54,209 nt of DNA from Bacteroidota bacterium (GTDB lineage: Bacteria; Bacteroidota; Bacteroidia; Flavobacteriales_D; Sanyastnellaceae). Where the stretch lies: assembly GCA_002746975.1 (NCBI GenBank), contig NVXE01000003.1:31111-85319 (forward strand), given 5' to 3'. Below, one piece after another: positions 6,229 to 45,703 of this stretch. The stretch's first letter is position 1, and every line of letters begins with the position of its first letter. The notes below the pieces were generated by a model. That model was not told the origin of the DNA. It worked only from the letters and a program-made list of their open reading frames with translations, and made no database searches. Position numbers and translations under genes: made by a program.

Positions 6229-7120
6229 CTATTCTTCGTAATGGTATCTTGTTCCTTTTAGCGTACCTGTTTTAAATAGTAATCCTTCGTTTACGAGGTA
6301 AGTTAAATCTTTTTTCAAAGTGTTTCGAGAATGATTCTTAAACGCTTCTACTATTTCACTAATTCGTGCTTTTTTCTGCTTTTTAACGAACTCTAAAACT
6401 CCTTGCTGTCTTTCGTTTAAATCTTTCTTTAGCTTACTGTAAACCTCGTATTTTGCTTCTAATCTCTTAATTAATGTAACCAAACAATCTAAGAAGAATA
6501 AAACCCATTTATCCATTTTTTCAGTTTCCTTATATCGATTTTTTTGCCCATACATTAAAGCTCCGTAATAATCATCTTTTCTTTCTTCAATAATGTGTTC
6601 AAAAGACACGTATTGCGCAAACTCGTAACCTTGTCGCATCAATAATAAAGTAGTCATTAACCGTGATAATCTTCCGTTTCCATCTTGGTAGGGATGGATA
6701 GATAAAAATTCATAAACAAAAGCTGCTGTTATCATTACTGGGTGCATATCTGCTTTTTCAAAACGTTCATTTACCCAACTCAACAAACCCTCCATTTCAC
6801 TTGCTGTCAAATGTGGTTCTGTTGTTCTAAAAATTGTTTTTTGTCTTCCATCAGGATAATTAGCTACTACTTGATTGGATAGGTTCTTAAATTTCCCTTT
6901 ATGTGTTTGGTCTTTATGGCTATGCTTCAATAAAATCCCGTGCATTTGATGAATGTAACTTTGTGTTAACGGTATTTCTTCAAAGTTTTCTAAGTTCTTT
7001 TAGGTGTTTGCTGTTGCTTAATTCTATCACTTCCCAGTTCCCTTTGAAGCTATCAATAACACTCAACTTCTTCATTATTTGCTGAAAAACTTCTCCTGTA
7101 AATTCTAATTTTTTATTCAT
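6229..7120 (-). pseudogene. Fic/DOC family protein, broken by an internal deletion
   Basis: Two pieces of one gene. The 5' piece (7120-6980, 46 codons) begins MNKKLEFTGEVFQQIMKKLS and ends at TGA. The 3' piece is open in another frame; its first ATG is 6945, but family-like sequence starts earlier (LENFEEIPLTQSYIHQMHG, reading into 6945). It carries the Fic motif HPYQDGNGRLSR (HPFxxGNGR pattern) and a C-terminal winged-helix region ending in GTRYHYEE. Intact relatives have about 60-80 more residues between the two pieces, including the inhibitory (S/T)xxxE(G/N) helix and the start of the Fic fold; here the join is within CTTAGAAAACTTTGAAG. A deletion whose length is not a multiple of three explains the loss and the frameshift. 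The 238-residue downstream frame could still be translated from 6945. Confidence 0.75.
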
Positions 7121-14323: not shown

Positions 14324-16156
14324 ATGAATTTTTTTAAATCGACCCTTTTATTGCTGATCCCAGGGCTTATTAGTCCCGTTTTTTTAGCCCAAAACATTAT
14401 TACTCTAGACAATCATTTCGAAGATTGGGTAGGAGCTCAAACTTGGACTTCTAATACCGGGGGCAACATAAATGAGGTGTCTGTCGCTCACACTAACGAG
14501 TGGGTTTATTTCTATATAAAAACTACTAACGAGGTCGCACTCGATGAAACGACTCTTCCTAATTCTATTCAGCTAGTTATCGATTTCGACAACAATCCCG
14601 GTACCGGAAGTAACTATCAGGGCCTGGGACTGGGGGCAGAAATGGTGATTAACTTTCCCACTCGAGCCGTAACTCTTTTTAATAGTTCTGGAGGCTCGTC
14701 TGGTCCTGGAATTAATGATGTCGGCGTTCACGTTTCTCCTGTTTACAGTGCTACTCAGTTTGAGATTGCTATAGACCGTTCGTTGGTAAATCTTGGGGAT
14801 GGGGTTATGAATTTCGTTTGGTATGAGTCATCGAGCGGAAGTGAAATCCCCTCTGGAGGAGGAACGCATACTTTGACGAGTTTTAACCCTGCGATAACAC
14901 CTACAGCAATTGAAAAGGCTCCGGGCACTGAGATTCGGGTAGCCTTCTGGAACGTAAACCGAAGGCTTGACGAGCCAGTAGCTCAACTTTCTGCCGAAAG
15001 AATTCTTAGCGCAACTCAACCCGACGTAATAGGGTTTTCTGAAGTCGATGACGTTACCGCAGCTTTTGTAACTGGACTTTTAAATAGCTGGATGCCCCTA
15101 CCGGGCGGCACAAGTTGGAATGTTGTTAAAGATGATTACGACCTTATGATAGCTAGCCGCTTCCCCATAGCCTCTACATATCCTGCTATTAGCAGGCAAT
15201 TACCTGGGATAATTAGCACGGAAGCTGTTTGGGGGGTCCCTATGCTGTTTACTAGCTCGCATTTAAAGTGTTGTAATGGTGATGTGCTTAGGCAACAGCA
15301 AGCTGATGAGTATATGGCTTTTCAGAGAGATGCAATGACCTCTGGTGGTTCTATAGACATTCCCGTGGGCTCGCCTATAGTTTATGGGGGTGATTTGAAT
15401 ATGGTGGGACTAGGTGGGCCAATTTATACTTTAGAGTCGGGAAACATTTTTGATAATGGCCAATATGGTGCTGATTTCCAGCCTGATTGGGACGGAACCC
15501 CTATGCTCCAGCTTGATGCTCGCCAAACCGATAGGTTGATGGACTACACTTGGAGAAGTGATTGGTCTTCATATATGCCTGGTAAGCTTGATTATATCCT
15601 CATCTCTGATGGTGTTATCGATGTATTAAACCAATTCACCCTCCAAACGTCTGATTTATCCCCAGCTCGATTATCCCAGTATGGTCTTCTCGCAGGAGAT
15701 GATTTGGCCGCCTCTGATCACTTTATTGTCGTCGCAGACCTTGCTCTTACTGGAGGCACTTCTCAGCAAGATTCTGATGGAGATGGCATTAATGATTCCA
15801 TCGATAATTGTCCTGATTTGGCAAATGCAGACCAAAACGATTTCAATGCCGACGGCATAGGCGATGCTTGCTCTGACTTTGATAACGACGGCCTGTCAGA
15901 TGAGTTAGAGATTCAAGTTTTAGGAACTGACCCTTCAATTCAGGACACAGACGGCGATGGATTAACTGACGGGATAGAGGTTTCGCTCTTTATAACAGAC
16001 CCCCTTCTTTACGACACTGACGGGAACGGGTTTAGCGACGCCGAAGATCTTCTATTCGCGGGCACTTCAACTTGTGCCGGTGACGCAAATGGTGACGGAA
16101 CCGTCACCGTTAGCGACCTCTTAGTAATTCTTTCGACTTTCGGAAATATTTGCTAG
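14324..16156 (+). CDS. secreted endonuclease/exonuclease/phosphatase-domain protein with Ca-binding repeats
   Basis: 610 aa. The signal peptide is FFKSTLLLLIPGLISPVFLA. Residues 24-195 form a beta-rich domain that starts ITLDNHFEDWVGAQTW, like the carbohydrate-binding/DOMON-type modules found before secreted enzymes. Residues 203-478 form the EEP domain: IRVAFWNVNRRLD, PDVIGFSEVDD (metal Glu), VYGGDLNMVG and AASDHFIVVADL (catalytic His). Residues 482-585 are DxDxDG thrombospondin type 3-like calcium repeats, and the end, DANGDGTVTVSDLLVIL, is dockerin-like. It may be a secreted nuclease or phosphodiesterase. No typical T9SS tail is visible, although the end may serve a sorting role. Confidence 0.8.
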   Translation: MNFFKSTLLLLIPGLISPVFLAQNIITLDNHFEDWVGAQTWTSNTGGNINEVSVAHTNEWVYFYIKTTNEVALDETTLPNSIQLVIDFDNNPGTGSNYQGLGLGAEMVINFPTRAVTLFNSSGGSSGPGINDVGVHVSPVYSATQFEIAIDRSLVNLGDGVMNFVWYESSSGSEIPSGGGTHTLTSFNPAITPTAIEKAPGTEIRVAFWNVNRRLDEPVAQLSAERILSATQPDVIGFSEVDDVTAAFVTGLLNSWMPLPGGTSWNVVKDDYDLMIASRFPIASTYPAISRQLPGIISTEAVWGVPMLFTSSHLKCCNGDVLRQQQADEYMAFQRDAMTSGGSIDIPVGSPIVYGGDLNMVGLGGPIYTLESGNIFDNGQYGADFQPDWDGTPMLQLDARQTDRLMDYTWRSDWSSYMPGKLDYILISDGVIDVLNQFTLQTSDLSPARLSQYGLLAGDDLAASDHFIVVADLALTGGTSQQDSDGDGINDSIDNCPDLANADQNDFNADGIGDACSDFDNDGLSDELEIQVLGTDPSIQDTDGDGLTDGIEVSLFITDPLLYDTDGNGFSDAEDLLFAGTSTCAGDANGDGTVTVSDLLVILSTFGNIC

Positions 16157-32775: not shown

Positions 32776-35718
32776 GTGAATAAACTAGATAAATTAGAAA
32801 GTATTCTTTTTGAGAAATCGATAGAAGCACGATTTATTCTTGAGAAAGGAAAAGTAATAAATAGCAATAGACACGCTAGGAGAATATTCCATTGTGAGGA
32901 AGATTCATGGATAGGATTTAAGCCGCTTTCTAAAAATTCAGGAATATTTAATTACCTACCTGATGAGCACAGCTTACTAATGAGTAAGCTAAAAAAATCA
33001 CGAAAAACAGGAAGGGTAATTAAAATATGTGTGCTTGCTAGAAGGATAGATGGAAGTGAATTTCATTGCGAAATAAAGATTGCGCAATTAGAAAAAGACA
33101 TTGAAGTTTTACAGGTAAGGGATATATCTGAACGGCTTTTTTATGATAATGAAATAAGGGAAAGTGAGGCTAGGTTTAGAGCATTATCACAATTTGCTAT
33201 GGAGGGAATCGTTTTTTTGAATAATTCTATTATTGAAGATTCTAACGAACAATTTGCTGTGATGTTTGGTTATGAAAAGGTTCCAATTGGAAAATCTATT
33301 CTAGACTTTATAGACGAAAGGGACTGGCAAAGATTATCTGCAAGAAGAAATTGGGGTATGAGATGTGAGCTAAGGGGTGTAACTAAACAGGGTAGATCCA
33401 TTTATTTAGAAGCTACTAGAAGTGATGGAAAAGATGAGGGAAGCGAACAGATTTTAATGGTTTACGATATTACCGATCGTAAAAGAACAGAATTTGATCT
33501 ACTCCAAACAAAAGAGAGGTTTAGAATGCTTGTAGAATCTAGTCCTATCGGGCTTTTCTTAATAGTAGATGGAAAAATAAAATATACAAATACGGGAGGG
33601 TTAGAGCTGCTAAATGAAAGGGTAGAAGATTATATATACGACGAGGTTTTTATTGATCTTTTTAACGACGAGGACAAGGTAATAGTAAGTAATGACATAG
33701 AAAAAGTTAGAAACGGAGAAAGACCTCCGTATCGAGAAGTGATAATGATGTTGCGAGACGGAACCTCAAAGGAAGTTGGTATAAGAATGACGCTTTCTTT
33801 TCACGATAGATCCCCAGCGATACAAATTACAGTTACAGACCTTAGCACTAGAATACAGTTGATTAGAGAGCAAATGCGTGCAACTCTTGCAGAAGAGTCA
33901 AACACCATGCTTAAGGAAGAAATAGATAAACACAAAAAAACTCAGCTACGGTTAAGAGAAGCCGAAGAGTTTAATAGATCTATTATAGAATCGTCTATTG
34001 ATATGATTGTAGCGTTTGATATGTCAGGTACTTTACAACAGTATAATCACGCATTTTCAGTAGAGTTTGGAGTTGAACCAGGAAAAGAGAAAAAGATAAA
34101 TTTCAAACAGTTTATTGCAAATAAAAAATCCTCGGAGGAGGTGTGGAATGCACTGCAACAAAGAAGTTATTATTCCGGAGAGATAGAGGGTAAGAGACTT
34201 TCCGGAGAGATATTCAGTATGTTTATTTCAGTTGCGACAATGCGTGATGGGTATGGGAGAGCTCTTGGGGCTATGGCTGTAGGAAGAGACATTACAGACA
34301 TGAAGCTTGCGGAAGCGGACTTAAAGGCTAGCGAGGAAAGACATAGAGATATCTTAGACAATGCGACAGATATTATTTTTGTAGTAGATTCTTTGGGATT
34401 CTTTACCTACGCAAACCCATCATTTTATAAGAAACTAGGATATACTGAGAAGACGCTTGCTAAGGTGAAAATAATGGACGTGATAAAGCAGTTTCCAACA
34501 AAGAATAAAAATTGGATTAAAGCATTAGATAACGTTCAACAAGAATACACTTTTATAGATGCCAAAGGTGGTGAAATATTAGTGTTAGGAGCAGGGTCGG
34601 CACAGTATGAGGAAGGGGGAAGAATTGTGGGTATGAGGGGTATATACCTTGATATTACAGAGATGAGAAAGCACGAAAAAGAGGCAAAAACTCAATCGGC
34701 TAAGCTTGAATCAATCTTCGACTCGACCCAAAACCTTATCATGTTCACACTAAGCAGCTCGGATAAAATCACCTCGTTTAATAATAATTTTAGGCGATTG
34801 ATGGAGGAGGAGTTTGGTAAAGAAGTGGAGTTAGGGATGTCATTTATTTCTAATATTTCAGGCCTGATAGATGATGAGTCTTATCAAGGCCAAATTAGAT
34901 TGTTCAAAAATGCTCTAAAGGGCAGAGCAAAAGATTTCGAGCTTCCTCTAAAAACGGAATCGGGAATTTCTAAGTGGTATCACATTTTTCTTAACCCTAT
35001 TTCACTTGACGATTCTTCGAATGAAATTAGCTGTATAGCATATGATATTTCAGAGAGAAAGGAGATAGATAAAGCAATTCGTTTGGCCTTAAAAGAGAAA
35101 GAAATACTACTGCAAGAAGTTCATCACAGAGTAAAAAATAATTTACAGGTGATAAGTAGTTTGATGAGTTTGCAAAAGTCGTTTGTTAAAGATCCGACAC
35201 TTGTTCAGGTTCTTGAAGAAAGCCAAAGCCGTATTGCAACAATGAGCTACATACACGAGTCCCTTTATAGACACACGGACTTTTCGTCAATTAGTTTTTC
35301 GGAATACCTTCAAAGGCTAAGCACGAATTTGATTCACAGTTATTCTACCCCTGACTGCGAGGTGATTTTGCAAACAGCTTTCGAGGATGTTTTCCTAACT
35401 TTAGATCAAGCAATTCCGAGTGGGCTTATTGTTAATGAGCTAGTTTCGAATGCTTTAAAATATGCTTTCCGTGGAAAAAAAACCGGTACCGTTCTATTAA
35501 GGGTGGCTAAAACGGAAGGCAAAATAGAAATAGAAGTGAGTGATGATGGGGTGGGACTGCCTGATGGATTTGATCTTGAAAAGAGAGAGTCACTAGGATT
35601 ATACCTAATTCAAGCCCTAACAGAGCAGTTAGATGCTGAGTTAATAATAGAAAGCACAAAGGAGGGACGTAAAGGAAGTTCTTTTTTAATTAGCTTTGAA
35701 GCGCAAAACCTGAATTAA
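32776..35718 (+). CDS. soluble multi-PAS sensor histidine kinase (HisKA_2 type)
   Basis: 980 aa from GTG at 32776. No membrane helices are seen. The N-terminus and then five or six PAS-type modules (for example ESEARFRALSQFAMEGIVFL, RFRMLVESSPIGLFLIVDG, SEERHRDILDNATDIIFVVD) fill residues 1-765. The phosphoacceptor block is LLQEVHHRVKNNLQ (His783 or His784), the HisKA_2 pattern, followed by a HATPase domain with IVNELVSNALKYAF, EVSDDGVGLPDGF and SLGLYLIQAL. It is the middle gene of an operon with a MORN-repeat exported protein and a LytTR response regulator 16 nt downstream, which is the obvious partner. The signal is unknown; PAS domains may bind small ligands. Confidence 0.92.
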   Translation: MNKLDKLESILFEKSIEARFILEKGKVINSNRHARRIFHCEEDSWIGFKPLSKNSGIFNYLPDEHSLLMSKLKKSRKTGRVIKICVLARRIDGSEFHCEIKIAQLEKDIEVLQVRDISERLFYDNEIRESEARFRALSQFAMEGIVFLNNSIIEDSNEQFAVMFGYEKVPIGKSILDFIDERDWQRLSARRNWGMRCELRGVTKQGRSIYLEATRSDGKDEGSEQILMVYDITDRKRTEFDLLQTKERFRMLVESSPIGLFLIVDGKIKYTNTGGLELLNERVEDYIYDEVFIDLFNDEDKVIVSNDIEKVRNGERPPYREVIMMLRDGTSKEVGIRMTLSFHDRSPAIQITVTDLSTRIQLIREQMRATLAEESNTMLKEEIDKHKKTQLRLREAEEFNRSIIESSIDMIVAFDMSGTLQQYNHAFSVEFGVEPGKEKKINFKQFIANKKSSEEVWNALQQRSYYSGEIEGKRLSGEIFSMFISVATMRDGYGRALGAMAVGRDITDMKLAEADLKASEERHRDILDNATDIIFVVDSLGFFTYANPSFYKKLGYTEKTLAKVKIMDVIKQFPTKNKNWIKALDNVQQEYTFIDAKGGEILVLGAGSAQYEEGGRIVGMRGIYLDITEMRKHEKEAKTQSAKLESIFDSTQNLIMFTLSSSDKITSFNNNFRRLMEEEFGKEVELGMSFISNISGLIDDESYQGQIRLFKNALKGRAKDFELPLKTESGISKWYHIFLNPISLDDSSNEISCIAYDISERKEIDKAIRLALKEKEILLQEVHHRVKNNLQVISSLMSLQKSFVKDPTLVQVLEESQSRIATMSYIHESLYRHTDFSSISFSEYLQRLSTNLIHSYSTPDCEVILQTAFEDVFLTLDQAIPSGLIVNELVSNALKYAFRGKKTGTVLLRVAKTEGKIEIEVSDDGVGLPDGFDLEKRESLGLYLIQALTEQLDAELIIESTKEGRKGSSFLISFEAQNLN

Positions 35719-35734
35719 AACCTAACCCAGCAGT

Positions 35735-36484
35735 ATGGCTATAAATATTTTAGTAACAGAGGACGAAAGCATTGTTAGAAAGGATATCGAAAGGTGTCTT
35801 GAGCAATTAGGATATAATATTATTGCTTCAGCAGACAATGGCGAAAAGGCTATAGAGCTAGCTCTAAAACACAAACCTGACCTATGTCTTATGGACATAA
35901 TGATTAAAGGAGATATGAATGGCATAGCAGCTGCAGAGGAAATAAAAAGAAACCTAGACGTTCCTATTATTTTTTTAACAGCGTATGCTGATGAAAGCAC
36001 ACTAGCCCAGGCAAAAATGGCCGAACCGCACGGCTACATACTGAAACCGTTTAAAGACGCGGACATTCAGTCTGCTGTCGAAATGGCTCTACACAAGCAC
36101 GGGAAAGAAAAGGAGCTTAAGCAGGAAGCAGAATTTCTTCGCAGTCTTACAGAGCACAACTCAAATGCAGACATCATCTTCGTGAAGAACAGAAGTAGAC
36201 TGATGCACATAAAGCATGACGACCTGTTGTTTGTTGAGGCTCTTAAGGACTACGTTGTAATTCACACGAGAAAGGAGAGCTATACTATTCACAGCACGAT
36301 GAAGGAAATAGAGCGAAAGCTCAGTGACAGAAGATTTGTTAGGGTTCATAGAAGTTACATAGTAAATCTAAACGCCATAGAAAGCATTAAGTACTCTAAC
36401 ATCATAATGGAGGATATGGAAAAAGAAATCCCAGTTGGGGGGTCTTATAAAGAAGCTCTTGCAAGTAGAATAAACTTATTATAA
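35735..36484 (+). CDS. LytTR family response regulator
   Basis: 249 aa. The receiver domain occupies residues 3-120: acidic pair Glu9-Asp10, phosphoacceptor Asp54 in LCLMDIMIKGDMNG, Thr in IFLTAYAD and Lys in ILKPFKDAD. A linker follows, and the LytTR DNA-binding domain covers about 145-248 with DLLFVEALKDYVVIHT, FVRVHRSYIVNLNAI and the C-terminal IPVGGSYKEALASRI. It most likely receives phosphate from the PAS kinase encoded 16 nt upstream. Target genes are unknown. The gene converges on phoU with 12 nt between the stops. Confidence 0.93.
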   Translation: MAINILVTEDESIVRKDIERCLEQLGYNIIASADNGEKAIELALKHKPDLCLMDIMIKGDMNGIAAAEEIKRNLDVPIIFLTAYADESTLAQAKMAEPHGYILKPFKDADIQSAVEMALHKHGKEKELKQEAEFLRSLTEHNSNADIIFVKNRSRLMHIKHDDLLFVEALKDYVVIHTRKESYTIHSTMKEIERKLSDRRFVRVHRSYIVNLNAIESIKYSNIIMEDMEKEIPVGGSYKEALASRINLL

Positions 36485-36496
36485 AGTAAAAATCTG

Positions 36497-37159
36497 CTAA
36501 CCGTTTTTCTTGTGTTTTAAAATTTCTGCCTCTAGATAGAATATTAACTCTTCAGCGATATTCTTAATATGATCTCCAACACGTTCTAGCTTTCGAATAG
36601 TGGAAAAAAGAAAAAGTGACTGTACAATAATATCAGGATCCTTCTTGGCAAAGTCACAAATCACACTTGATGAATTCTTATTAATCATGTTTAATTCAAC
36701 ATCTTTTTTGTAGACCTTCATAGCTAATTTATCGTCCTCCTCATCAAAGGCTACCATAATATCTTGAGCCATAGAAATCGCAATATCGAACATCAGATTT
36801 AGTTTTGTAGCTTCGATTAACTCCGCTCTAAGGTCTTGATCAAAATCAACTACGTATGAGGCTATTCCCTCTGCGTAGTCGGCAATTCTTTCAAGGTCTG
36901 AATTAATTTTAAGCATTGCTATAACGAACCTCAAATCTGAAGCCACAGGATTGAAAAGGGCAAAAATATTTTCACAATCTCGATCAATGCTTAGCTCTAT
37001 TGCATTCATTCGTTTTTCATTATGAATAACCACTTGCGCTATTTCAGTATCCATGTTCATGTAAGCGTCTTTCGCTTTTTTAAGTTGACTTATTGCCAAA
37101 GCAGTCATCTCAAGAACAGATTTTTTTAAGCTTTTCAACTCCTCTTCTAAATGTGTCAT
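36497..37159 (-). CDS. phoU: phosphate signalling protein PhoU
   Basis: 220 aa, two PhoU helical repeats (residues about 10-100 and 115-205), with the conserved MNAIELSIDRDCENIFALFNP and DLERIADYAEGIA in the first and KLERVGDHIKNIAEELIF in the second. PhoU restrains phosphate uptake by the Pst transporter and Pho signalling when phosphate is plentiful. It is the last gene of the pst operon, 15 nt after pstB. Cytoplasmic. No odd features. Confidence 0.95.
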   Translation of the reverse strand: MTHLEEELKSLKKSVLEMTALAISQLKKAKDAYMNMDTEIAQVVIHNEKRMNAIELSIDRDCENIFALFNPVASDLRFVIAMLKINSDLERIADYAEGIASYVVDFDQDLRAELIEATKLNLMFDIAISMAQDIMVAFDEEDDKLAMKVYKKDVELNMINKNSSSVICDFAKKDPDIIVQSLFLFSTIRKLERVGDHIKNIAEELIFYLEAEILKHKKNG

Positions 37160-37174
37160 TGTGTCATGTTTTTT

Positions 37175-37921
37175 CTACCCAAACCGGCCACTTATATAGT
37201 TTTCCGTTTTTTTGTTCTTAGGGTTGGTGAAAATTTGCTTTGTATCACCAAATTCAACTAACTCACCAAGATAAAAGAATCCTGTCTTATCGCTTATTCT
37301 CCCGGCTTGATGCATATTATGAGTTACCACAACTATAGTATAGTTTTGCTTTAACTCGTAGATTAAAGACTCAATTTTTGCTGTTGATATAGGGTCTAGT
37401 GCAGACGCAGGCTCATCCATCAAGATAATAGATGGCTCAACAGCAAGTGTTCTGGCTATGCAAAGCCGTTGTTGCTGTCCTCCAGATAAGGCCAAAGCAT
37501 TTTTTTTCAAATCGTCTTTCACCTCATCCCAAAGAGCTGCTTTTTTAATAGATTTTTCGACGGCCTCGTCTAAAACATCCTTATTGTTAATTCCTTGAAT
37601 TCTAAGGCCATAAGCTACATTTTCATAGATAGATTTTGGAAAAGGGTTTGGTTTTTGAAATACCATACCTACAGTTTTTCTTAGCTCTTCTATCTCGGCG
37701 TCTTTTCTATAAATGTCTTTACCGTCGATTAGAATATCACCCTCCTTTCGGAAGTTTTCGATATAATCATTCATCCTATTAAAGAGACGTAAATATGTAG
37801 ACTTTCCACATCCTGACGGACCAATTAGAGCAGTTACGGTGTTTTCAGGAACTTGAAGAGTTACATCTTGCAACACTTTTTTATCGCCATAAAAAACGTT
37901 TACGTTTTTGGACTCTAGCAT
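37175..37921 (-). CDS. pstB: phosphate ABC transporter ATP-binding protein PstB
   Basis: 248 aa from the ATG at 37921, which follows AAAGGGGGG by 8 nt and matches where relatives begin ([13 protein letters not shown]). The frame is open further up, with ATGs at 37951 and 37972, so the start is not certain. Motifs: Walker [11 protein letters not shown]-loop [17 protein letters not shown], signature [16 protein letters not shown], Walker [15 protein letters not shown]-loop VVTHNM. It drives phosphate import through PstC-PstA. It lies between pstA and phoU. Confidence 0.95.
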
Positions 37922-38007
37922 ATAAGAACCCCCCTTTATCCGATCTTTCATTTCTCCAGACTCCTTTAACATTAATTTTATCTATGATTAGCTATTGAAA
38001 ACCCGAA

Positions 38008-38865
38008 CTACCACGGGTTTTTTTTCTGAGCCCTGTTTCGAATATAAACAGCAATGCCTATCATAAGAAACACAAAACACAATAAAACGATAATAGCTGC
38101 CGCGGCATTAATAGTAAACCCATGCTGAGGTCGTGATACCCAGTTGAATATTTGCATTGGTAATACGGTAAATTCATCCATAGGCGTTTTAGCAACAAAT
38201 GGTACATAAGCTAACGCCCCCACGACAATCAAAGGTGCCGTTTCACCAACAGCTCGAGATAGAGCAAGAATTATACCCGTAATAATACTGCTTGCAGATG
38301 CGGGCAGAACCTGACGGCTTATTGTTTGCCACTTGGTCGCCCCAAGAGCGAAAGAGGCCTCTTTGATAGTTTTAGGTACAGCTCTGATTGCCTCTCTTGT
38401 AGCAACAATAATTATAGGTAGTATTAAAAGAGCAAGCGTTAAGCTACCCGCGAGTAAACTAGCTCCGAAACCGAGTATTCGGACAAAGACCTCTAGGCCT
38501 AAAATACCGTAAATAATAGATGGTACCCCTGCAAGGTTAGCAATATTTATTTCCAACAAATTTGCTAACCAGCCCTTTTTACTGTACTCTTCAAGATAAA
38601 CCCCAGCACCGACGCCTATGGGTATAGCTATTGCTGCGGTTAAGCAAAATATCCAAAATGTTCCTGTCCAAGCAGTTAATATACCAGCTCTTTCAGGAAA
38701 TCGTGAGGGCAAACTACTCATAAAACTCCAGTCAATTCTTTGAACTCCATCGATTAGAATATTAAGAATAAATATTGCTAGAATAATTAACCCAGATAGT
38801 GTACAAACTATGCCGAAGTACTTAAACAGAACATCCTTAATTCTATTTACACGGGCATTATTCAT
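38008..38865 (-). CDS. pstA: phosphate ABC transporter permease PstA
   Basis: 285 aa with six hydrophobic helices. The region ATREAIRAVPKTIKEASFALGATKWQTI is the EAA-type coupling loop that contacts PstB; INIANLAGVPSIIYGILGLEVF is characteristic of PstA. The start overlaps the end of pstC by 8 nt, so the two permease subunits are translated together. Inner membrane. A basic C-terminus (RNRAQKKNPW) faces the cytoplasm. Confidence 0.94.
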   Translation of the reverse strand: MNNARVNRIKDVLFKYFGIVCTLSGLIILAIFILNILIDGVQRIDWSFMSSLPSRFPERAGILTAWTGTFWIFCLTAAIAIPIGVGAGVYLEEYSKKGWLANLLEINIANLAGVPSIIYGILGLEVFVRILGFGASLLAGSLTLALLILPIIIVATREAIRAVPKTIKEASFALGATKWQTISRQVLPASASSIITGIILALSRAVGETAPLIVVGALAYVPFVAKTPMDEFTVLPMQIFNWVSRPQHGFTINAAAAIIVLLCFVFLMIGIAVYIRNRAQKKNPW

Positions 38866-39736
38866 ATTGTATTCTATATTTTTTCTTTATCCAAAAACTT
38901 ACACTGTTCAAAATAAAGGTTAGAGCAAACAAAGAGATGCCCGCGGCAAAAATGCTTTGGTGCTCCAGAGACCCAAATTGAACATCACCTGAACTGACCT
39001 GAACGATATAAGCGGTGATAGTTTGCACAGGCTTAAGCGGATTAAGAGTAAGCCCAGGCATTTGACCAGCAGCAATCGTAACAATCATGGTTTCTCCTAT
39101 AGCTCTAGAAATAGCGAGTATCGTTGATGCAGTGATGCCCGATGATGCAGACGGAATAGTTACTCTAAATACGGTCTGTAGCCTTGTGGACCCCATCCCA
39201 TAAGCGGCTTCTCGCAAAGACTTCGGTACCGCGTGTAAAGCATCTTCACTCATGGAAGAGATAAATGGAATAATCATAACCCCCATTACAATACCTGCCG
39301 AAAGGGCATTGAACCCCGATACTCCAGGAATGATGTTTTGTAGAAAGGGGGTAACTACCATAAGGGCGAAAAACCCGTAAACAACAGTTGGTACAGCTGC
39401 TAATAGTTCTAGAAGTGGTTTTATTATTTTCCGAAACGATCTGGGGGCATACTCACTTAGGTAAATAGCAATACCCATCCCTACAGGAAGGGCAACCATA
39501 ATAGCAATCACGGTAGTTAGAAAAGTTCCAGCTAATAAAGACAGTATCCCAAAATGTTTTTCAGAGTACAGAGGCGTCCACTGTGGATCAGTAAAAAAGT
39601 CATATAAAGAAACGTTTCTAAAGAAAGAAAACGCTTCTACAGTTAATATTAGGATAATTCCTGCCGTAGTCAGAACAGTAATAAGAGCGCACATAAACAG
39701 CGCCTTTTCAATAATATATTCCTTAATTTTTAACAT
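38858..39736 (-). CDS. pstC: phosphate ABC transporter permease PstC
   Basis: 292 aa with six hydrophobic helices. LPVGMGIAIYLSEYAP, ELLAAVPTVVYGFFALMVV and the coupling loop DALHAVPKSLREAAYGMGSTRLQTV are the PstC hallmarks. It partners PstA in the inner-membrane channel and is fed by PstS encoded 23 nt upstream. All parts are intact. It is the second gene of the pst operon. Confidence 0.94.
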   Translation of the reverse strand: MLKIKEYIIEKALFMCALITVLTTAGIILILTVEAFSFFRNVSLYDFFTDPQWTPLYSEKHFGILSLLAGTFLTTVIAIMVALPVGMGIAIYLSEYAPRSFRKIIKPLLELLAAVPTVVYGFFALMVVTPFLQNIIPGVSGFNALSAGIVMGVMIIPFISSMSEDALHAVPKSLREAAYGMGSTRLQTVFRVTIPSASSGITASTILAISRAIGETMIVTIAAGQMPGLTLNPLKPVQTITAYIVQVSSGDVQFGSLEHQSIFAAGISLFALTFILNSVSFWIKKKYRIQYE

Positions 39737-39759
39737 CTTCAGACGCTGAAATAAGGAGG

Positions 39760-40698
39760 CTACTTGATTGAAAAGGCATTAAATTTTGCCAATGTGTTGC
39801 TATATTCAGAATCAGAAAGAGGGATATACCCAACGTCCTTAGATAGCTGCGCGGCGTTTTTAATATAAAACTGAACGAACTCCCTTACGTTATCTCGTTT
39901 GGCAGATTTTTCATTTACATAGATAAACAATGGACGAGCAAGTGGAGAGTATGTTCCATCTCCAACAGTTTTAAGCGACGGTAGAACGGCACCGTTTCCG
40001 CTATCAACCCCAATTAATTTAAGCTGGTCTTTGTTTTCCGTGTAATATGCCAAACCAAAATACCCAAGCGCATTTTCATTTGTGCTAATTCCTTTAACGG
40101 CAACATTGTAATCTGAAACAGCGTTGTAATCTGAACGACTCGCCCCAGATTCCCCAACGATTTCTTCAGTGAAAAAATCATAAGTTCCGTGTGCAGTACT
40201 TGGACCAAACAATTGTATATTTTCAGACGGCCACTCTGGTCTAATATCGCTCCAGGTCTGAACAGGACTATTAGGTTTCCACAGCTCCTTAAGCTCTTCA
40301 GTAGTAATAGTTTCCAGCCAGCTATTATTCTTGTTTACAACAATAGCAATTCCATCAAGGGCGACTCTAATTTCGAGATATTTGATATTGTTTTCTTTAC
40401 AAGCCCTTACTTCTTTTGCCTTAATTGCACGTGAAGCATCTGAAATATCCGTTTCTCCTCGCGCAAACTTTTTAAAGCCAGCACCTGAACCAGAAGATCC
40501 AATAGTTACCTTGACTTTCGGCTGTTCTACTCTAAATTCTTCAGCTACGGCCTCTGTAATTGGGTAAACAGTGCTGGACCCATCAACTTGAACAGCTCCA
40601 GACAGCTCAGAATCGTTGTTTTTTTGTTGAGAACCGTTACAAGATGTCAGTAATCCCCCAGCACACATTGCTAAAATTGATATAGCGAATATTTTCAT
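39760..40698 (-). CDS. pstS: phosphate-binding lipoprotein PstS
   Basis: 312 aa. The signal ends in the lipobox LLTSC (Cys20), so it is a membrane-anchored periplasmic protein. VDGSSTVYPITEAVAEEF, IGSSGSGAGFKKFARGETDISDASR and the later FGPSTAHGTYDFF are the phosphate-contacting loops of the PstS family. It delivers phosphate to PstC-PstA-PstB. It opens the pst operon and has an upstream set of four 11-bp-spaced repeats (see 40721-40776), so starvation control is likely. Confidence 0.95.
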   Translation of the reverse strand: MKIFAISILAMCAGGLLTSCNGSQQKNNDSELSGAVQVDGSSTVYPITEAVAEEFRVEQPKVKVTIGSSGSGAGFKKFARGETDISDASRAIKAKEVRACKENNIKYLEIRVALDGIAIVVNKNNSWLETITTEELKELWKPNSPVQTWSDIRPEWPSENIQLFGPSTAHGTYDFFTEEIVGESGASRSDYNAVSDYNVAVKGISTNENALGYFGLAYYTENKDQLKLIGVDSGNGAVLPSLKTVGDGTYSPLARPLFIYVNEKSAKRDNVREFVQFYIKNAAQLSKDVGYIPLSDSEYSNTLAKFNAFSIK

Positions 40699-40720: not shown

Positions 40721-40776
40721 CAAAAGTAGTTTTGTAGTGTTAATTTAAAATTAATGGGACTTTAAGCATTTGTTAA
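40721..40776 (-). promoter_or_regulatory. pst operon promoter with four-repeat Pho box
   Basis: The -7 box TACTTTTG lies at 40728-40721 on the minus strand. Upstream, TTAACA (40776-40771), TTAAAG (40765-40760), TTAATT (40754-40749) and TTAACA (40743-40738) repeat at an exact 11-bp period, in the direction of pstS. The last hexamer ends 9 bp before the -7 box. An 11-bp period of direct repeats is the layout of PhoB/PhoP binding sites. No separate -33 element is visible, which suits an activator-dependent promoter. Confidence 0.75.
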
Positions 40777-40829
40777 GAATATAAGTCTTTAGATAAGATA
40801 TAATCAACAAATACCTATTAGTTGACCCA

Positions 40830-43685
40830 CTACTTTATCGTGTAGGAAAGGCTTAGAGAGTAAGTACTTCCTAGCTTGTGTGATTCATTCAAATAAGTAT
40901 TTTCTTTAAATGTCTGAAGAGTTAAGTATTCAGCATTCAGTATATTATTGATTCGAAACTTCAGGTTTAAATGTTTTTTAAAAGATTTAGTGATAGATAG
41001 ATTAAGCATACCCCTTGGTTGGTCATAAATATCAGGCAAACCCTTTAATCCTATTGCTGCTAACCTTTTTCCAAAGACGTTATAGCTAATATTTGTTCCA
41101 AAATCATTTTTGACAGAATAAAAGGACAATATGGTGTTAAGAAGAAAAGGCGACTGCCCTTGAAAAGGTCTATAAGAATCAATTTCAGAGTTTATTTCAG
41201 ACAACATTAGGTATTCAGAAGGGTCTAATGCAACTCGAGAAATGATATATGAAAAGTTTGTGTTTATTTTGAAGTTTTTCAACTTAGGGTCTATAAAAGA
41301 CAAATTCTTCCTTACGTCTATTTCAAAACCGTAAACATCAGCGTCGTTAGTGTTTTGATAGATTATTTCTGGATTTATCGCCTCAGTGTTGTAGGCCTTA
41401 ACAATAGGGCTAGAAAAATGTTTATAGTATCCACTTATTGCAAGAATTTCACCGGGTTTAATATAATGCTCCCATCGAATGTCATAATTATTAATCAAGG
41501 TTGTTTTTAATTGGGGATTTCCAAGATAAAGGAAACCTCCTATAAAGTCGAAAGTAACAAATGGAGCAAGTTCTCTCATCGTAGGGCGGGCAATTGTTTG
41601 GCTAAACGAACCTCTAAAATTCGTACTGCTATTTAAGCTATAGATTAGATTAATAGAAGGAAAAAAGTTAAACTGATTAATATCTCCTTTCGTTTGTGTG
41701 GTATCAGCGCTTTCAACATGCATCACCATTTTTTCTACTCTACCACCACCAGAAAACATAAGATTCTTTGTAATACCGTACATCCCCATTAGGTAGAATG
41801 CAGTAATGTTCTCAAAACCGGAGTAATGATTAGAGTTTTTCGTGTTGTTAACTAAATAATTCCCTATGATTGAGTTGTCTAGTATAGAGTCATGACCAAT
41901 AACTCCAGTGTTTTGTGGCCCAAAGAACGCATACTGATCTCCTTGGTAACTCTCACCATCTTTGCTATTATAGTAAAATCTATATTCCTTGAAGTCTCGT
42001 TCTTTTTTGTTTGTTCTAAAACCAAACTTAATTTTATTTAAATTATTCGACTCCTTGGATAGCGGAATAGTAACGTCAAGCTTAAACTCCAATGCCTCAT
42101 CCTTCAAAAACCTAAAGTAGTGATAAGGTAAGTCGTACTCTGAAACGGAAATGTAATAAACCGAATCGCCGATATTTTCATTAGCAAAGAAACGAAGGTC
42201 TGGCTCATCCTGAAAAGACTTTGAGTAAGCCCCGACCCATTCTAGTTCAGAATTGCGCAGGCTTTTAAACAAATGTTTTCCTTTTAGCTGAGTAGTGTTT
42301 AACCCTCTTTCCCGAAACTGAAGAGTACGCGTTTCAAAAACATTGTTACTTCCAGAGACAATACCGGGAATTATTCCACTCTGAAATCGGGACACCTTTT
42401 CTGTGTCGTGATTATAAAGATTGAGAACTCCTATTTCATGATTAGGCCCTAACTTATACGTAGCTCCTATCATACCGCTAAGAACAGGATTTTCTACACT
42501 TTTGGTATCCTTTAGATCATAATATGTGAACAGCTCATCAGCCGCTGAGCCAGTAATGTCCCATGCCCGATTACGCCCATTCTCATAAAAAGTATAACTC
42601 CTATTATGATTAATCCCCAATATTATTCCTAAGGGATTATTAAACAAAGAGTATTGATTACCAAAAGAAAATGAGGTGTTGTAATTTGTTAGTGAAGTTT
42701 TAGGAGTTGCTTCCATTTGAGAGTTAAGAGACCTTGAAGCCTCATCTAATAATAAAGCATCCTCTTCGTTTCTTCTTGCCTGAATATAAAAAATAGGGGA
42801 ACTTAAAGTCGAAAGATTAGCCTCATTACCCAAAACCGAGGGCAGTTCTCTTGAGCCATCATCATAACCAAGCCAATCATACTTTCCTCCTTCGTGCGAA
42901 AGAAAATTCCGATTAAATGACGACTGACGATTGTATGAGATGCCATTAGAAAAAGTCAAGGTCATTTTTTCAGGAATGTCCTTAGTATTTAAATTGACGA
43001 TTCCACCAGCAAAGCTTCCCGGCTGATCTGGCGATGCTGTTTTTACCGTAATTAAATTGTCTAATAAGTTTGAGGGGATTAAATCAAGAGGAACACTGTT
43101 AATGTATGGATCAGTACTAATAAGGCTTGCCCCATTGAGCTGTGCGGAGGTATACCTATCTCCTAGCCCTCGAACATAGACATATTTACCGTCTATTACA
43201 GAAGTCCCCGTAATCTTTTGTGCAGACTCTGCCGCGTTGCTTGCTCCCACACGAGTTATCTCTTCAGAAGAAATACCGTCTTGAACAGAAAAAGATTTTT
43301 TTTGTAGAGATAACAGGGCGTTTTCAGAACTCTTAACCGCCTTAACAGAAACCACAGCCTCGGCTAATTCGGTAGAACGTGTTTCCATAATAAAATCGAC
43401 AACCAACACTTCGTTTGCTTTAATCTCAATATTAGAAATAGACTTCTTCTCATAAGTAATAAAGGAACCCACAAGGGTGTAAATACCAGGAGGAATCCCC
43501 TCAATTAGATAATTCCCGCTAAGGTCCACACTACTACCTAAGTATAATTCATCTAGATACACATTTGCTCCTATCATTGGCTCGCCTGTCTCCAAGTCGG
43601 TTACCCTTCCTTGAATTGCTCCACTTTGTGCCAAACAAAACAACGGGATTTGGCATATAAATACCAGTAAGGTTATGAATTTCAT
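40830..43685 (-). CDS. TonB-dependent receptor, likely phosphate-linked
   Basis: 951 aa from ATG 43685, whose product starts with a normal signal peptide (MKFITLLVFICQIPLFCLAQ); the frame is open to 43724. Residues 20-105 form the carboxypeptidase-like regulatory domain GAIQGRVTDLETGEPMIGANVYL, then a plug (LQKKSFSVQDGISSEEI, VYVRGLGDRYTSAQLNGA), then a beta-barrel of outer-membrane type ending in an aromatic-rich strand (YSLSLSYTIK). It sits 66 nt after the T9SS beta-helix gene and directly before pst, so uptake of a phosphorus source across the outer membrane under phosphate limitation is likely. Substrate is not readable. Confidence 0.9.
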   Translation of the reverse strand: MKFITLLVFICQIPLFCLAQSGAIQGRVTDLETGEPMIGANVYLDELYLGSSVDLSGNYLIEGIPPGIYTLVGSFITYEKKSISNIEIKANEVLVVDFIMETRSTELAEAVVSVKAVKSSENALLSLQKKSFSVQDGISSEEITRVGASNAAESAQKITGTSVIDGKYVYVRGLGDRYTSAQLNGASLISTDPYINSVPLDLIPSNLLDNLITVKTASPDQPGSFAGGIVNLNTKDIPEKMTLTFSNGISYNRQSSFNRNFLSHEGGKYDWLGYDDGSRELPSVLGNEANLSTLSSPIFYIQARRNEEDALLLDEASRSLNSQMEATPKTSLTNYNTSFSFGNQYSLFNNPLGIILGINHNRSYTFYENGRNRAWDITGSAADELFTYYDLKDTKSVENPVLSGMIGATYKLGPNHEIGVLNLYNHDTEKVSRFQSGIIPGIVSGSNNVFETRTLQFRERGLNTTQLKGKHLFKSLRNSELEWVGAYSKSFQDEPDLRFFANENIGDSVYYISVSEYDLPYHYFRFLKDEALEFKLDVTIPLSKESNNLNKIKFGFRTNKKERDFKEYRFYYNSKDGESYQGDQYAFFGPQNTGVIGHDSILDNSIIGNYLVNNTKNSNHYSGFENITAFYLMGMYGITKNLMFSGGGRVEKMVMHVESADTTQTKGDINQFNFFPSINLIYSLNSSTNFRGSFSQTIARPTMRELAPFVTFDFIGGFLYLGNPQLKTTLINNYDIRWEHYIKPGEILAISGYYKHFSSPIVKAYNTEAINPEIIYQNTNDADVYGFEIDVRKNLSFIDPKLKNFKINTNFSYIISRVALDPSEYLMLSEINSEIDSYRPFQGQSPFLLNTILSFYSVKNDFGTNISYNVFGKRLAAIGLKGLPDIYDQPRGMLNLSITKSFKKHLNLKFRINNILNAEYLTLQTFKENTYLNESHKLGSTYSLSLSYTIK

Positions 43686-43751
43686 CAGATGTTCATAATT
43701 GTATAATCGAAACATAGAGGACAAGCGAGCTAAACAGAAATAGACGAGTTG

Positions 43752-45461
43752 TTATTGAACAATAAAAGGCTTGCTGTAAACAACGGAGGGAGTGCTTGCC
43801 TTTAAAAGGTATACTCCTGGAACTAAAGCGTCAGTATTCCAAGACACTTTTCTGTTTCCATTTTGAAATTTATTTCCAATCTCTGTTATCAACTTTCCTG
43901 AGAGATCGTACACCTCTAGCTTACAAGTTTCAACAGTGGCATTTGTTAGCTCTATGAAAACAACTCCGCTTGTAGGGTTTGGATATAGGTTGATTTCAGA
44001 ATTGCTCCGCGCGTATAATTCATTAACAGATGTTGTCGTAGGCAAGTATCCGTATTCAGACAAGGCACTCCAGCCATCTATCCAAAGGTTATTTTCGACA
44101 GAATCAAAGGCCCCCTTGTAATCCACGGCTGTAAAAAACGCGTCAACAGGACTTGCTGCTAAATCTAACAGAGCAGGACTATCCACTTGTGGCCTAGGGT
44201 CTAATAGGCCGTTTGGCAACCTACTAATACTGTTAAGCATAGGGTTAGAAATCTGGTTGTTATTCGTAGTCAGGTGGTTAATTAGGTAAGTACACGAGTT
44301 ATCATCTCCACCAGTTGTGAACCGAATGATTCCTGTGTTTGGATTTGCATCAAGTGTTGTAAATGTGTTAAAGCCATACCAAAGATTGTTTAAGAGGCTA
44401 ATTTCTCCATTTTGTAGTCTAGTATAACTGTCAATTCCACTTGCTGAAGGAAGGTCTTCTATCTCCAAGGCCTTATTCGCGTATTCAGTAAAAATGCTAT
44501 TAGCAACAGTTCCAGCAGTTGCATCACGCATTAATATAGCATTAGTATTGTTAGCAGAAACAGACTCTGTTCCGCTTCCGATAAAAGTTAGGTTATACAC
44601 TGTTGGGTTTGAGTAAATAGAGTTTCCGTCAGGTTTCGCACCATCCCACTCTCCACCATTATCTGCGGCATCACTACCCTGAAGTACGAACCAAAACTGT
44701 CCATTTCCGACCCATCCCAAATCCCAATCAAACCCGTCGTCTCCACAAAAAGCTACGGCTGCGTTTTTTATATTAACAGCACCTCCAAAAATCTCAATTC
44801 CATCATCTAGGTTTGAAAAGACCTCGATATGTTCAACTACTGTTCCGCTTCCTACACCACCTAATGTCAATCCATTAATTTCATTGCCAGGAGAAAGCTC
44901 TGTTCCACCATGTCGTATAGAAACATATTTAAGCGTTCCGACGTTATTTTCATTATTAGTACCGCCGAACTGAGCCCTAGTTTCAGTTGTAGGTATCCCC
45001 TCAATGTTTGACGAAACAGTAGTGTTTCCTAAAATACCATCTCCTAAAAGTATTAACCCCCCCCACAAACCTCTATCAGTTGCTGTGAGATCAGCGGATT
45101 CGTTAAGGTCGTCTATCTCAGAAGTAAAAATAATGGGCTGTTCGGCAGTCCCCTCAGCTTCAATTCTAGCGCCTACGGTTATTATTAGAGCAGAAGCGTT
45201 GTCACTAGAGCTAGGACTTGCTTTGGCCTTTATAACAGTACCTGCCTGAATGTTTAGAACACCACCCGATTCAAGATATACAAACCCATCTAGGACATAA
45301 GTATTATTGTTTGTCCAGTTGTAGGTACCTGTGCCTAAGCTCTCGTCATTGATTGTAATTGTTTGAGCAAAAGATTCTTTTGATATCACAAACAATGACA
45401 CAAACAATAAACAAACGACACTTGATGTACTGAAGAGCCTTGAGTAAGAAAATATTTTCAT
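43752..45461 (-). CDS. T9SS type A beta-helix protein of the phosphate cluster
   Basis: 569 aa with a signal peptide (ending VISKESFAQ). Residues 30-440 are a right-handed parallel beta-helix-like region with many short Gly-rich turns: LNIQAGTVIKAKASPSS, LWGGLILLGDGILGN, NVGTLKYVSIRHGG, DDGIEIFGGAVNIKNAAV. The C-terminal 75 residues (EINLYPNPTSGVVFIELT to the end KPFIVQ) are a T9SS type A sorting domain, so it is exported to the surface. Homologues are often misnamed multidrug transporter; nothing here supports that. It precedes the TonB receptor and shares its Pho-box-like promoter, so a role in binding or releasing organic phosphate is plausible. Confidence 0.85.
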   Translation of the reverse strand: MKIFSYSRLFSTSSVVCLLFVSLFVISKESFAQTITINDESLGTGTYNWTNNNTYVLDGFVYLESGGVLNIQAGTVIKAKASPSSSDNASALIITVGARIEAEGTAEQPIIFTSEIDDLNESADLTATDRGLWGGLILLGDGILGNTTVSSNIEGIPTTETRAQFGGTNNENNVGTLKYVSIRHGGTELSPGNEINGLTLGGVGSGTVVEHIEVFSNLDDGIEIFGGAVNIKNAAVAFCGDDGFDWDLGWVGNGQFWFVLQGSDAADNGGEWDGAKPDGNSIYSNPTVYNLTFIGSGTESVSANNTNAILMRDATAGTVANSIFTEYANKALEIEDLPSASGIDSYTRLQNGEISLLNNLWYGFNTFTTLDANPNTGIIRFTTGGDDNSCTYLINHLTTNNNQISNPMLNSISRLPNGLLDPRPQVDSPALLDLAASPVDAFFTAVDYKGAFDSVENNLWIDGWSALSEYGYLPTTTSVNELYARSNSEINLYPNPTSGVVFIELTNATVETCKLEVYDLSGKLITEIGNKFQNGNRKVSWNTDALVPGVYLLKASTPSVVYSKPFIVQ

Positions 45462-45516
45462 GACTTGATTTTTTTTCAGCCCTTATAATTTTAGGCCGGT
45501 TTAATAATTAATACTG

Positions 45517-45572
45517 CAAAGCACGGATTCATATCTTAAGTTAATATGAAGGGCGTATTAAGTAATTATTAT
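45517..45572 (-). promoter_or_regulatory. Pho-box-like promoter of the T9SS/TonB pair
   Basis: On the minus strand ATAATA (45572-45567, weak), TTAATA (45561-45556), TTCATA (45550-45545) and TTAAGA (45539-45534) follow each other at 11-bp period. After 9 bp comes GTGCTTTG (45524-45517), a poor TAnnTTTG box. The geometry, including the 9-bp gap, is identical to the pstS promoter. Confidence 0.6.
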
Positions 45573-45703
45573 GTTAAAAAGAAAACCAAAGCACTAGAAA
45601 CAATAAAATGATTGAATTATTAGCTAATAGAGGAGTTGAAAATTTGGCTATGGAGACTTAAAAAAGCCGTTAGAAGCAACCTCAAATAAAGTGTTATTGC
45701 GCG

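Follow-up and report, generated by a model that had tools for sequence, protein, structure and literature searches.

Two phased repeat arrays upstream of pstS and bh

The window analysed here, a stretch of 54,209 nucleotides from a member of the Bacteroidota (contig NVXE01000003.1; source assembly of 2.39 Mb in 14 contigs, 95% complete), carries a pst operon for phosphate uptake and a gene pair encoding a secreted protein and a TonB-dependent receptor. The elements in question are two arrays of hexamers at 11-bp steps, one upstream of each, which we consider to be putative Pho boxes. The gene of the phosphate-binding protein, pstS (39760..40698, minus strand; TIGR02136 at 293 bits, cut-off 206.6), is followed by pstC, pstA, pstB and phoU (36497-39736). 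The pair consists of bh (43752..45461, minus strand), encoding a secreted protein with a type IX secretion system (T9SS) sorting tail (PF18962, TIGR04183), and, after a gap of 27 bp given the first start codon, the gene of a TonB-dependent receptor with a carboxypeptidase-like N-terminal domain (40830..43724, minus strand; PF00593, PF07715, PF13715).

Upstream of pstS, the minus strand reads TTAACA, TTAAAG, TTAATT and TTAACA in exact 11-bp steps (40738..40776; first bases 40776, 40765, 40754 and 40743). The -7 box TACTTTTG (40721..40728, minus strand) follows 9 bp past the last repeat, i.e., at phase 9 modulo 11. The array of the bh-TonB pair (45534..45572, minus strand) consists of ATAATA, TTAATA, TTCATA and TTAAGA, again in 11-bp steps (first bases 45572, 45561, 45550 and 45539), and its -7 box GTGCTTTG (45517..45524, minus strand) lies 9 bp past the last repeat and 31 bp past the best-scoring pair. 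Both arrays, including the 9-bp gaps, were found exactly as a first-pass annotation of this DNA had noted them, and their coordinates were verified.

The housekeeping promoter consensus of Bacteroidota comprises a -33 TTTG and a -7 TAnnTTTG element. TACTTTTG of pstS fits the -7 element and GTGCTTTG of bh lacks the TA. The -33 TTTG is absent from both promoters, its place being occupied by the units TTAATT and TTCATA, respectively. Upstream of bh, GTGCTTTG is present twice, at 45594 and 45524, 70 bp apart, and the array precedes the second copy only.

Conservation and enrichment of the array in other genomes

A two-hexamer matrix with an 11-bp step was trained on pstS promoters of other genomes, with the window excluded. 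Genes were called by a longest-open-reading-frame script (at least 90 aa), promoters needed at least 70 bp before the gene, and genes cut by the end of a locus were excluded. Starting from 29 pstS promoters drawn from the best PstS relatives, the matrix converged on acTTAACATTtaGTTAACAtaa using 25/29 of them; the array is conserved upstream of pstS in these 25/29 relatives, which are the training set itself, and scores of PstS promoters are therefore no test. The four pstS promoters without the array belong to L024, L035, L037 and L039, and in L035 and L037 the coding end of a response regulator lies, by eye, directly upstream.

Two sets of loci were scored, the second comprising 80 loci in named genomes found by a bh profile. 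Both sets partly overlap in some genomes (e.g., G409/OX638295.1 and G123/BQMY01000102.1), and the cluster count given below merges similar flanks. The bh alignment A1 contains 19 proteins from a list of 36 that includes the one of the window, and A2 contains 39 from a list of 51 plus that of the window. At least 10 bits were reached in the first set by 50/85 bh/TonB promoters (bh of the window included) in comparison to 16/301 other genes, and in the second set by 52/110 in comparison to 29/287; in the second set, 42/67 did so when every bh/TonB unit was represented by its first gene alone.

Summed over both sets and outside the window, 101/194 bh/TonB promoters scored. Pooling bh, TonB, PstS and porin promoters without the window gave 118/213 against 46/578 others; this pool includes 18 PstS promoters, 16 of them scoring, which are members of the matrix training set or similar to them. 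Dinucleotide shuffles of the same promoters reached 10 bits in 28/1065 cases for the pooled set and in 43/2890 for the others. The first-pass annotation had asked for the repeats upstream of pstS in relatives and for their frequency before unrelated genes; the former are present in 25/29 promoters, and the latter is 46/578 against 101/194 for bh/TonB. Neither result refutes its proposal, which is thus supported on both counts.

Several of the matches before other genes are probably phosphate genes themselves. One recurrent case (L210, L217, L224, L225, L235 and L240) is a protein of 748-772 aa that shares its start with the PHO4-family protein of L120. Genes for inositol monophosphatase-like or calcineurin-type phosphoesterase-like proteins beside bh-TonB (L140 3330-4121, gene 3 of L186 and gene 4 of L167) have matrix matches of 11.9 to 16.7 bits, two of them in phase. 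As these genes share their intergenic region with bh, the matches may belong to either gene.

Spacing between the array and the -7 box

For each promoter, the best TAnnTTTG-like box within 55 bp was taken as the -7 box, and its distance was counted from where the best repeat pair ends. Among the 117 promoters with at least 10 bits (55 TonB, 45 bh, 16 PstS and 1 porin; window excluded), 79 have a clear -7 box. It lies at 9 + 11n in 63/79, the distances 9, 20, 31, 42 and 53 bp occurring in 10, 11, 30, 3 and 9 cases, respectively. For bh/TonB promoters alone the box is in phase in 57/70, and in 49/62 clusters after merging of similar flanks. Among the 28 scoring shuffles of the pooled set, a box was present in 6 and in phase in 2.

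Since the two-hexamer matrix, and in part the phase, served to choose the promoters for the slot analysis, two neighbouring slots are high by construction and the fair test is provided by the slots outside this selection. With the -7 box of the in-phase promoters as common reference, TTAACA was matched in 3.75, 4.33, 4.54 and 4.48 of 6 positions by the slots at -15, -26, -37 and -48, and in 2.7-2.8 of 6 by those at -59 and -70, while other phases averaged 1.6-1.9. Without phase selection the same four slots gave 3.29, 3.93, 4.11 and 4.03 of 6. In the 28 promoters with a distal pair (box at 31), the unselected proximal slots reached 3.82 and 3.82 of 6 and the next upstream slot 1.93, and in the full set of 100 bh/TonB promoters slots three and four downstream gave 3.21 and 2.91 in comparison to 1.64 off register. 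Eight promoters with the box at 53 have the pair further upstream and six slots filled; a box at 9, seen in a further eight, goes with a weak fourth slot (2.25). The commonest core comprises four units, as first proposed from the two promoters of the window, and two to six occur.

A period close to the helical repeat and the AT-rich units would also suit phased A/T tracts that curve the DNA or serve RNA polymerase as an UP element, with no specific activator involved. We consider this very unlikely, given that the units spell TTAACA, with a preference for the C, in a single orientation and go together with phosphate genes.

The second slot covers -26 to -21 relative to the -7 box, i.e., the -33 place. 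A TTG 21-25 bp upstream of an exact TAnnTTTG was found 25 times at 109 sites of other promoters and once at 32 sites of the Pho set, and a TTTG in a -33-like place is present in 2/67 in-phase promoters. The earlier suggestion that an activator replaces the -33 contact gains modest support from the rarity of TTG. It had also been remarked that the poor -7 box of bh fits activator dependence. This is fair as a remark, but the box is nothing special, as in-phase boxes elsewhere begin with GA in 14/67 and with TT in 13/67 cases.

Occurrence of the array in the assembly and in the window

Four TTAA words at 11-bp steps without mismatch occur in the 2.39-Mb assembly at a single place, upstream of pstS. 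This pattern is self-complementary and every place is thus reported on both strands. Allowing up to two mismatches, 13 matches per strand were obtained (12 distinct stretches, two overlapping) against 14 in the reversed control. The bh array is one of the two-mismatch places, and since their number is about that of the control, the bare words fail to set the bh site apart. The pattern alone was therefore dropped as a genome-wide detector and kept only alongside matrix and phase. What sets the bh site apart is its matrix score combined with the phase to the -7 box. Places of the pattern outside open reading frames of at least 100 aa, with a score of at least 11.8 and the best downstream -7 box at 9 + 11n, are those of pstS, a porin gene (L155, overlapping L165) and bh only; L160 has 11.7 bits and lacks an in-phase -7 box. 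The first-pass annotation had cautioned that TTAA repeats are common in AT-rich DNA and that the shared geometry, more than the words alone, is the argument.

Scanning the whole window with the matrix yielded five places with at least 10 bits: bh (13.9), 14881 on the plus strand (12.6), pstS (11.8), 15631 on the minus strand (11.2) and 6953 on the plus strand (10.4). The places at 14881 and 15631 fall within a gene. The one at 6953 has GGTGTTTG in phase behind it, but no plus-strand open reading frame of at least 60 aa starts within 1.3 kb. Among the 15 promoter regions scored in the window, bh ranks first and pstS second, and the third-best has 8.1 bits.

That the arrays are chance words in AT-rich DNA would be in line with the mismatch counts, the pattern with two mismatches being no commoner than in the control. 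We nevertheless rule this out with near certainty on the grounds of the matrix enrichment, the shuffles and the phase distribution; arrays also occur in flanks that are GC-rich by eye, e.g., L027, L030 and L091.

Genes behind the array and their linkage

Four promoters of the window's genome fit the array and its spacing, namely those of pstS, the bh-TonB pair, the gene of a phosphate-selective porin and, behind phoBR, a PHO4-like gene. The place in L155 precedes the gene of a 374-aa phosphate-selective porin (PF07396) and reads TTAATA, TTAACA and TTAACA, followed after 20 bp by TTCCTTTG. The fourth place, with 24.9 bits, lies between phoR and the gene of a 331-aa protein, whose PHO4 match stays below threshold (27.4 bits, cut-off 33.7). 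Further members of the regulon in this genome are possible, the matrix scan having covered the window and selected places.

The congener G008, which has no PstS match, shows the order phoB, phoR, a 534-aa gene, bh and TonB, with 23.2 bits before the 534-aa gene. The 534-aa protein is related to the 331-aa protein of the window's genome (39% over 254 residues). The 331-aa copy has no alignment to residues 101-254 of its 534-aa relative, and an SBF-family transporter gene (ACR3-like by eye) follows it. In both L142 (G008) and L247 (4767-5762), from the same genus, phoBR is followed by a PHO4-like gene that has a strong Pho box.

In Pontibacter diazotrophicus (L204), phoU-pstBACS-porin is divergent from bh-TonB, and the porin, pstS and bh promoters score 21.7, 21.0 and 15.1 bits, respectively. 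A gene for PhoB, PhoR, PstS/C/A, PhoU or a porin is present in 23/77 named loci with an annotated bh (flank of at most 7 kb). TonB-bh was also seen beside pst or phoB genes in records labelled Latescibacterota, Gemmatimonadales, Chitinivibrionales, Opitutaceae and Zixiibacteriota (L195, L202, L205, L212, L213, L220 and L237), i.e., the linkage extends beyond Bacteroidota.

According to the available text of a study in Flavobacterium johnsoniae, depletion of inorganic phosphate strongly induces the TonB-dependent transporter Fjoh_0545 and the IPR011050 lipoprotein Fjoh_0546, encoded beside phoBR (PMC8115612), and its authors relate the lipoprotein to the low-phosphate lipoprotein ElpS of Caulobacter (PMC2996285). 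The same kind of gene pair and the same phoBR linkage are present in L201, L218 and L228, bh being likened to the lipoprotein via gene order and via that part of the published description; the words 'Pho box' and 'promoter' are absent from the main text of the study. Enrichment of the array in many genera and the agreement with this induction, as far as that text reports it, uphold the first-pass proposal that the outer-membrane pair is joined to the pst regulon.

Candidate regulator and proposed mechanism

The assembly encodes three proteins with an OmpR-type DNA-binding domain (Trans_reg_C), L008, L009 and L010. L008 combines a receiver with the Trans_reg_C domain and adjoins a histidine kinase, for which PnpS and PhoR are among the best models, also below cut-off. 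Relatives of the DNA-binding domain of L008 include the E. coli PhoB structures 1gxp and 3t72. L010 is RprY-like and L009 RpaB/YycF-like. The arrays might bind another response regulator, such as L010, L009 or the LytTR regulator beside phoU (35735-36484), considering that all three OmpR-type regulators share the Trans_reg_C domain and that the LytTR gene adjoins the locus. We regard this as unlikely. In the bh/TonB and pst loci retrieved from other genomes, every OmpR-type regulator with a match to one of the three at 1e-20 resembles L008 most closely (22/22, a few of them sharing locus or genome, and LytTR regulators excluded from the count), and the arrays precede phosphate genes (pstS, the PF07396 porin and the PHO4-like gene).

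Taken together, the repeat words, their steps and phase, their conservation and the gene linkage make it highly probable that the arrays are Pho boxes for a PhoB-type activator, placed on a Bacteroidota -7 promoter and covering its -33 place; from the same evidence we infer binding, activation and the response to phosphate. Low phosphate would lead via PhoR to active PhoB. The PhoB-type regulator, most likely L008 as the product of phoB beside phoR, would bind head to tail along one face of the DNA, occupying the four 11-bp units. The proximal units, 9 bp above TAnnTTTG, would cover the -33 place, and the bound activator would recruit the housekeeping sigma factor in place of the -33 contact. 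Low phosphate would thereby co-induce pstSCAB-phoU, the bh-TonB surface pair, the phosphate-selective porin and the PHO4-like gene behind phoBR.

Several observations weigh against this interpretation. In the pooled set, 95/213 promoters stay below 10 bits, and a clear -7 box is missing in 38/117 promoters with at least 10 bits. Boxes of bh/TonB promoters are out of phase in 13/70 cases, six of them one base later and one a base earlier, and PstS boxes alone are in phase in 5/8 only, so that the spacing rule rests on the bh/TonB set. The -7 box of bh in the window is weak (4.1 bits) and that of the PHO4-like gene is imperfect, being either GACCTTGC at 31 or TGACCTTG at 30. The bh gene of G008 itself has 9.3 bits only. 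The matrix scan found no Pho box before phoB (best -3.1 bits), which overlaps its upstream gene. Finally, the two best curated models of L008 are PhoB, yet it remains below their cut-offs (215 of 270 and 208.6 of 296.2 bits).

The commonest place of the best pair is 31 bp above the -7 box. The distal pair is hence often the strongest, which suggests that binding nucleates some way off and extends towards the promoter. We tentatively extend the Pho-box reading to a grammar of Pho promoters that might be common to Bacteroidota and neighbouring phyla, although we hold this extension to be somewhat short of an even chance. PhoB might nucleate on the strong distal pair and spread as a filament over the weaker 11-bp units to the sigma factor, met at the unit that lies 9 bp above the -7 box; provided the phase is preserved, the best pair could sit at any of several steps, and phosphate sensitivity might be tuned through the number of units.

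Comparison with described Pho systems

PhoP boxes of Bacillus subtilis consist of a TTAACA-like unit at an 11-bp step. The array described here has a very similar word and the same step, but it belongs to another phylum and another promoter type, and its best pair lies 9, 20, 31, 42 or 53 bp above the -7 box, i.e., up to five 11-bp steps.

In the available text of PMC4415409, the E. coli PhoB Pho box is described as two 11-nucleotide direct repeats, and B. subtilis is named among the species with similar Pho-box features. In both E. coli and the array here, 11-nt units in tandem, some of their positions better conserved than others, lie upstream of Pho genes, as far as that text describes them. 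The differences are a TTAACA-like unit (CTGTCAT in E. coli), a four-unit core, the TAnnTTTG partner and the 9 + 11n spacing.

For Bacteroides fragilis PhoRB, low-phosphate expression of pstC is reported to depend on PhoB in the available parts of PMC3547664. A Pho box is named there with no sequence given, and the main text does not contain 'consensus', 'direct repeat' or 'TTAACA'. Pho boxes have been predicted at plcP clusters of marine bacteria, with no Bacteroidota consensus in the portions available (PMC4796936). In PMC8564354, the single occurrence of PhoB is the name of a program. Pho boxes as such are thus known; their Bacteroidota form and its spacing rule were not found in the literature searched (open-licence papers), and a description elsewhere is possible.

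For a phylum in which no description of the Pho box was found, the array provides an operator of phosphate control in quantitative form. Pho regulons thereby become readable from sequence in uncultured Bacteroidota, including the bh-TonB pair of unclear function, and this surface pair can be placed in the phosphate-starvation response via the common array and the spacing rule. The strict 9 + 11n rule also opens a mechanistic question, namely what contact an OmpR-family activator makes with the unusual sigma factor of Bacteroidota at promoters that lack a -33 element.

Distribution of the pst operon and features of bh

PstS of this type is patchily distributed. Apart from the window's own genome, only weak matches to PstS (19-25% identity) were present in 6/59 near relatives, and there was no match in the 13 congeners searched, several of whose assemblies are incomplete. 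Across the phylum, 205/395 genomes, the own one included, have a PstS match at 1e-20, and the best match elsewhere is 63% identical and comes from another family. Candidate readings are that the pst operon (36497-40698) was acquired by transfer or that it was repeatedly lost in relatives. A multi-PAS HisKA_2 kinase and the LytTR response regulator (32776-36484) adjoin phoU and are convergent with it.

The AlphaFold2 model of bh has a mean pLDDT of 88.9 and consists mostly of short strands. A sequence search of the PDB returned no relevant match. Whole-length PDB matches in the fold search were weak (TMq of at most 0.26 among the matches listed, which include beta-helix proteins such as the mannuronan epimerases AlgE4/AlgE6 and tailspikes), and none was accepted as a convincing whole-length relative; the T9SS tail matches 8glk_D. 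A role of bh in phosphate scavenging is suggested by its predicted regulation and gene order. In L106, L174, L175, L186, L188, L219 and L220, bh is repeated within one reading frame, giving 1383 to 1867 aa, and repeated forms of about 1000 aa are present elsewhere, e.g., in L085.

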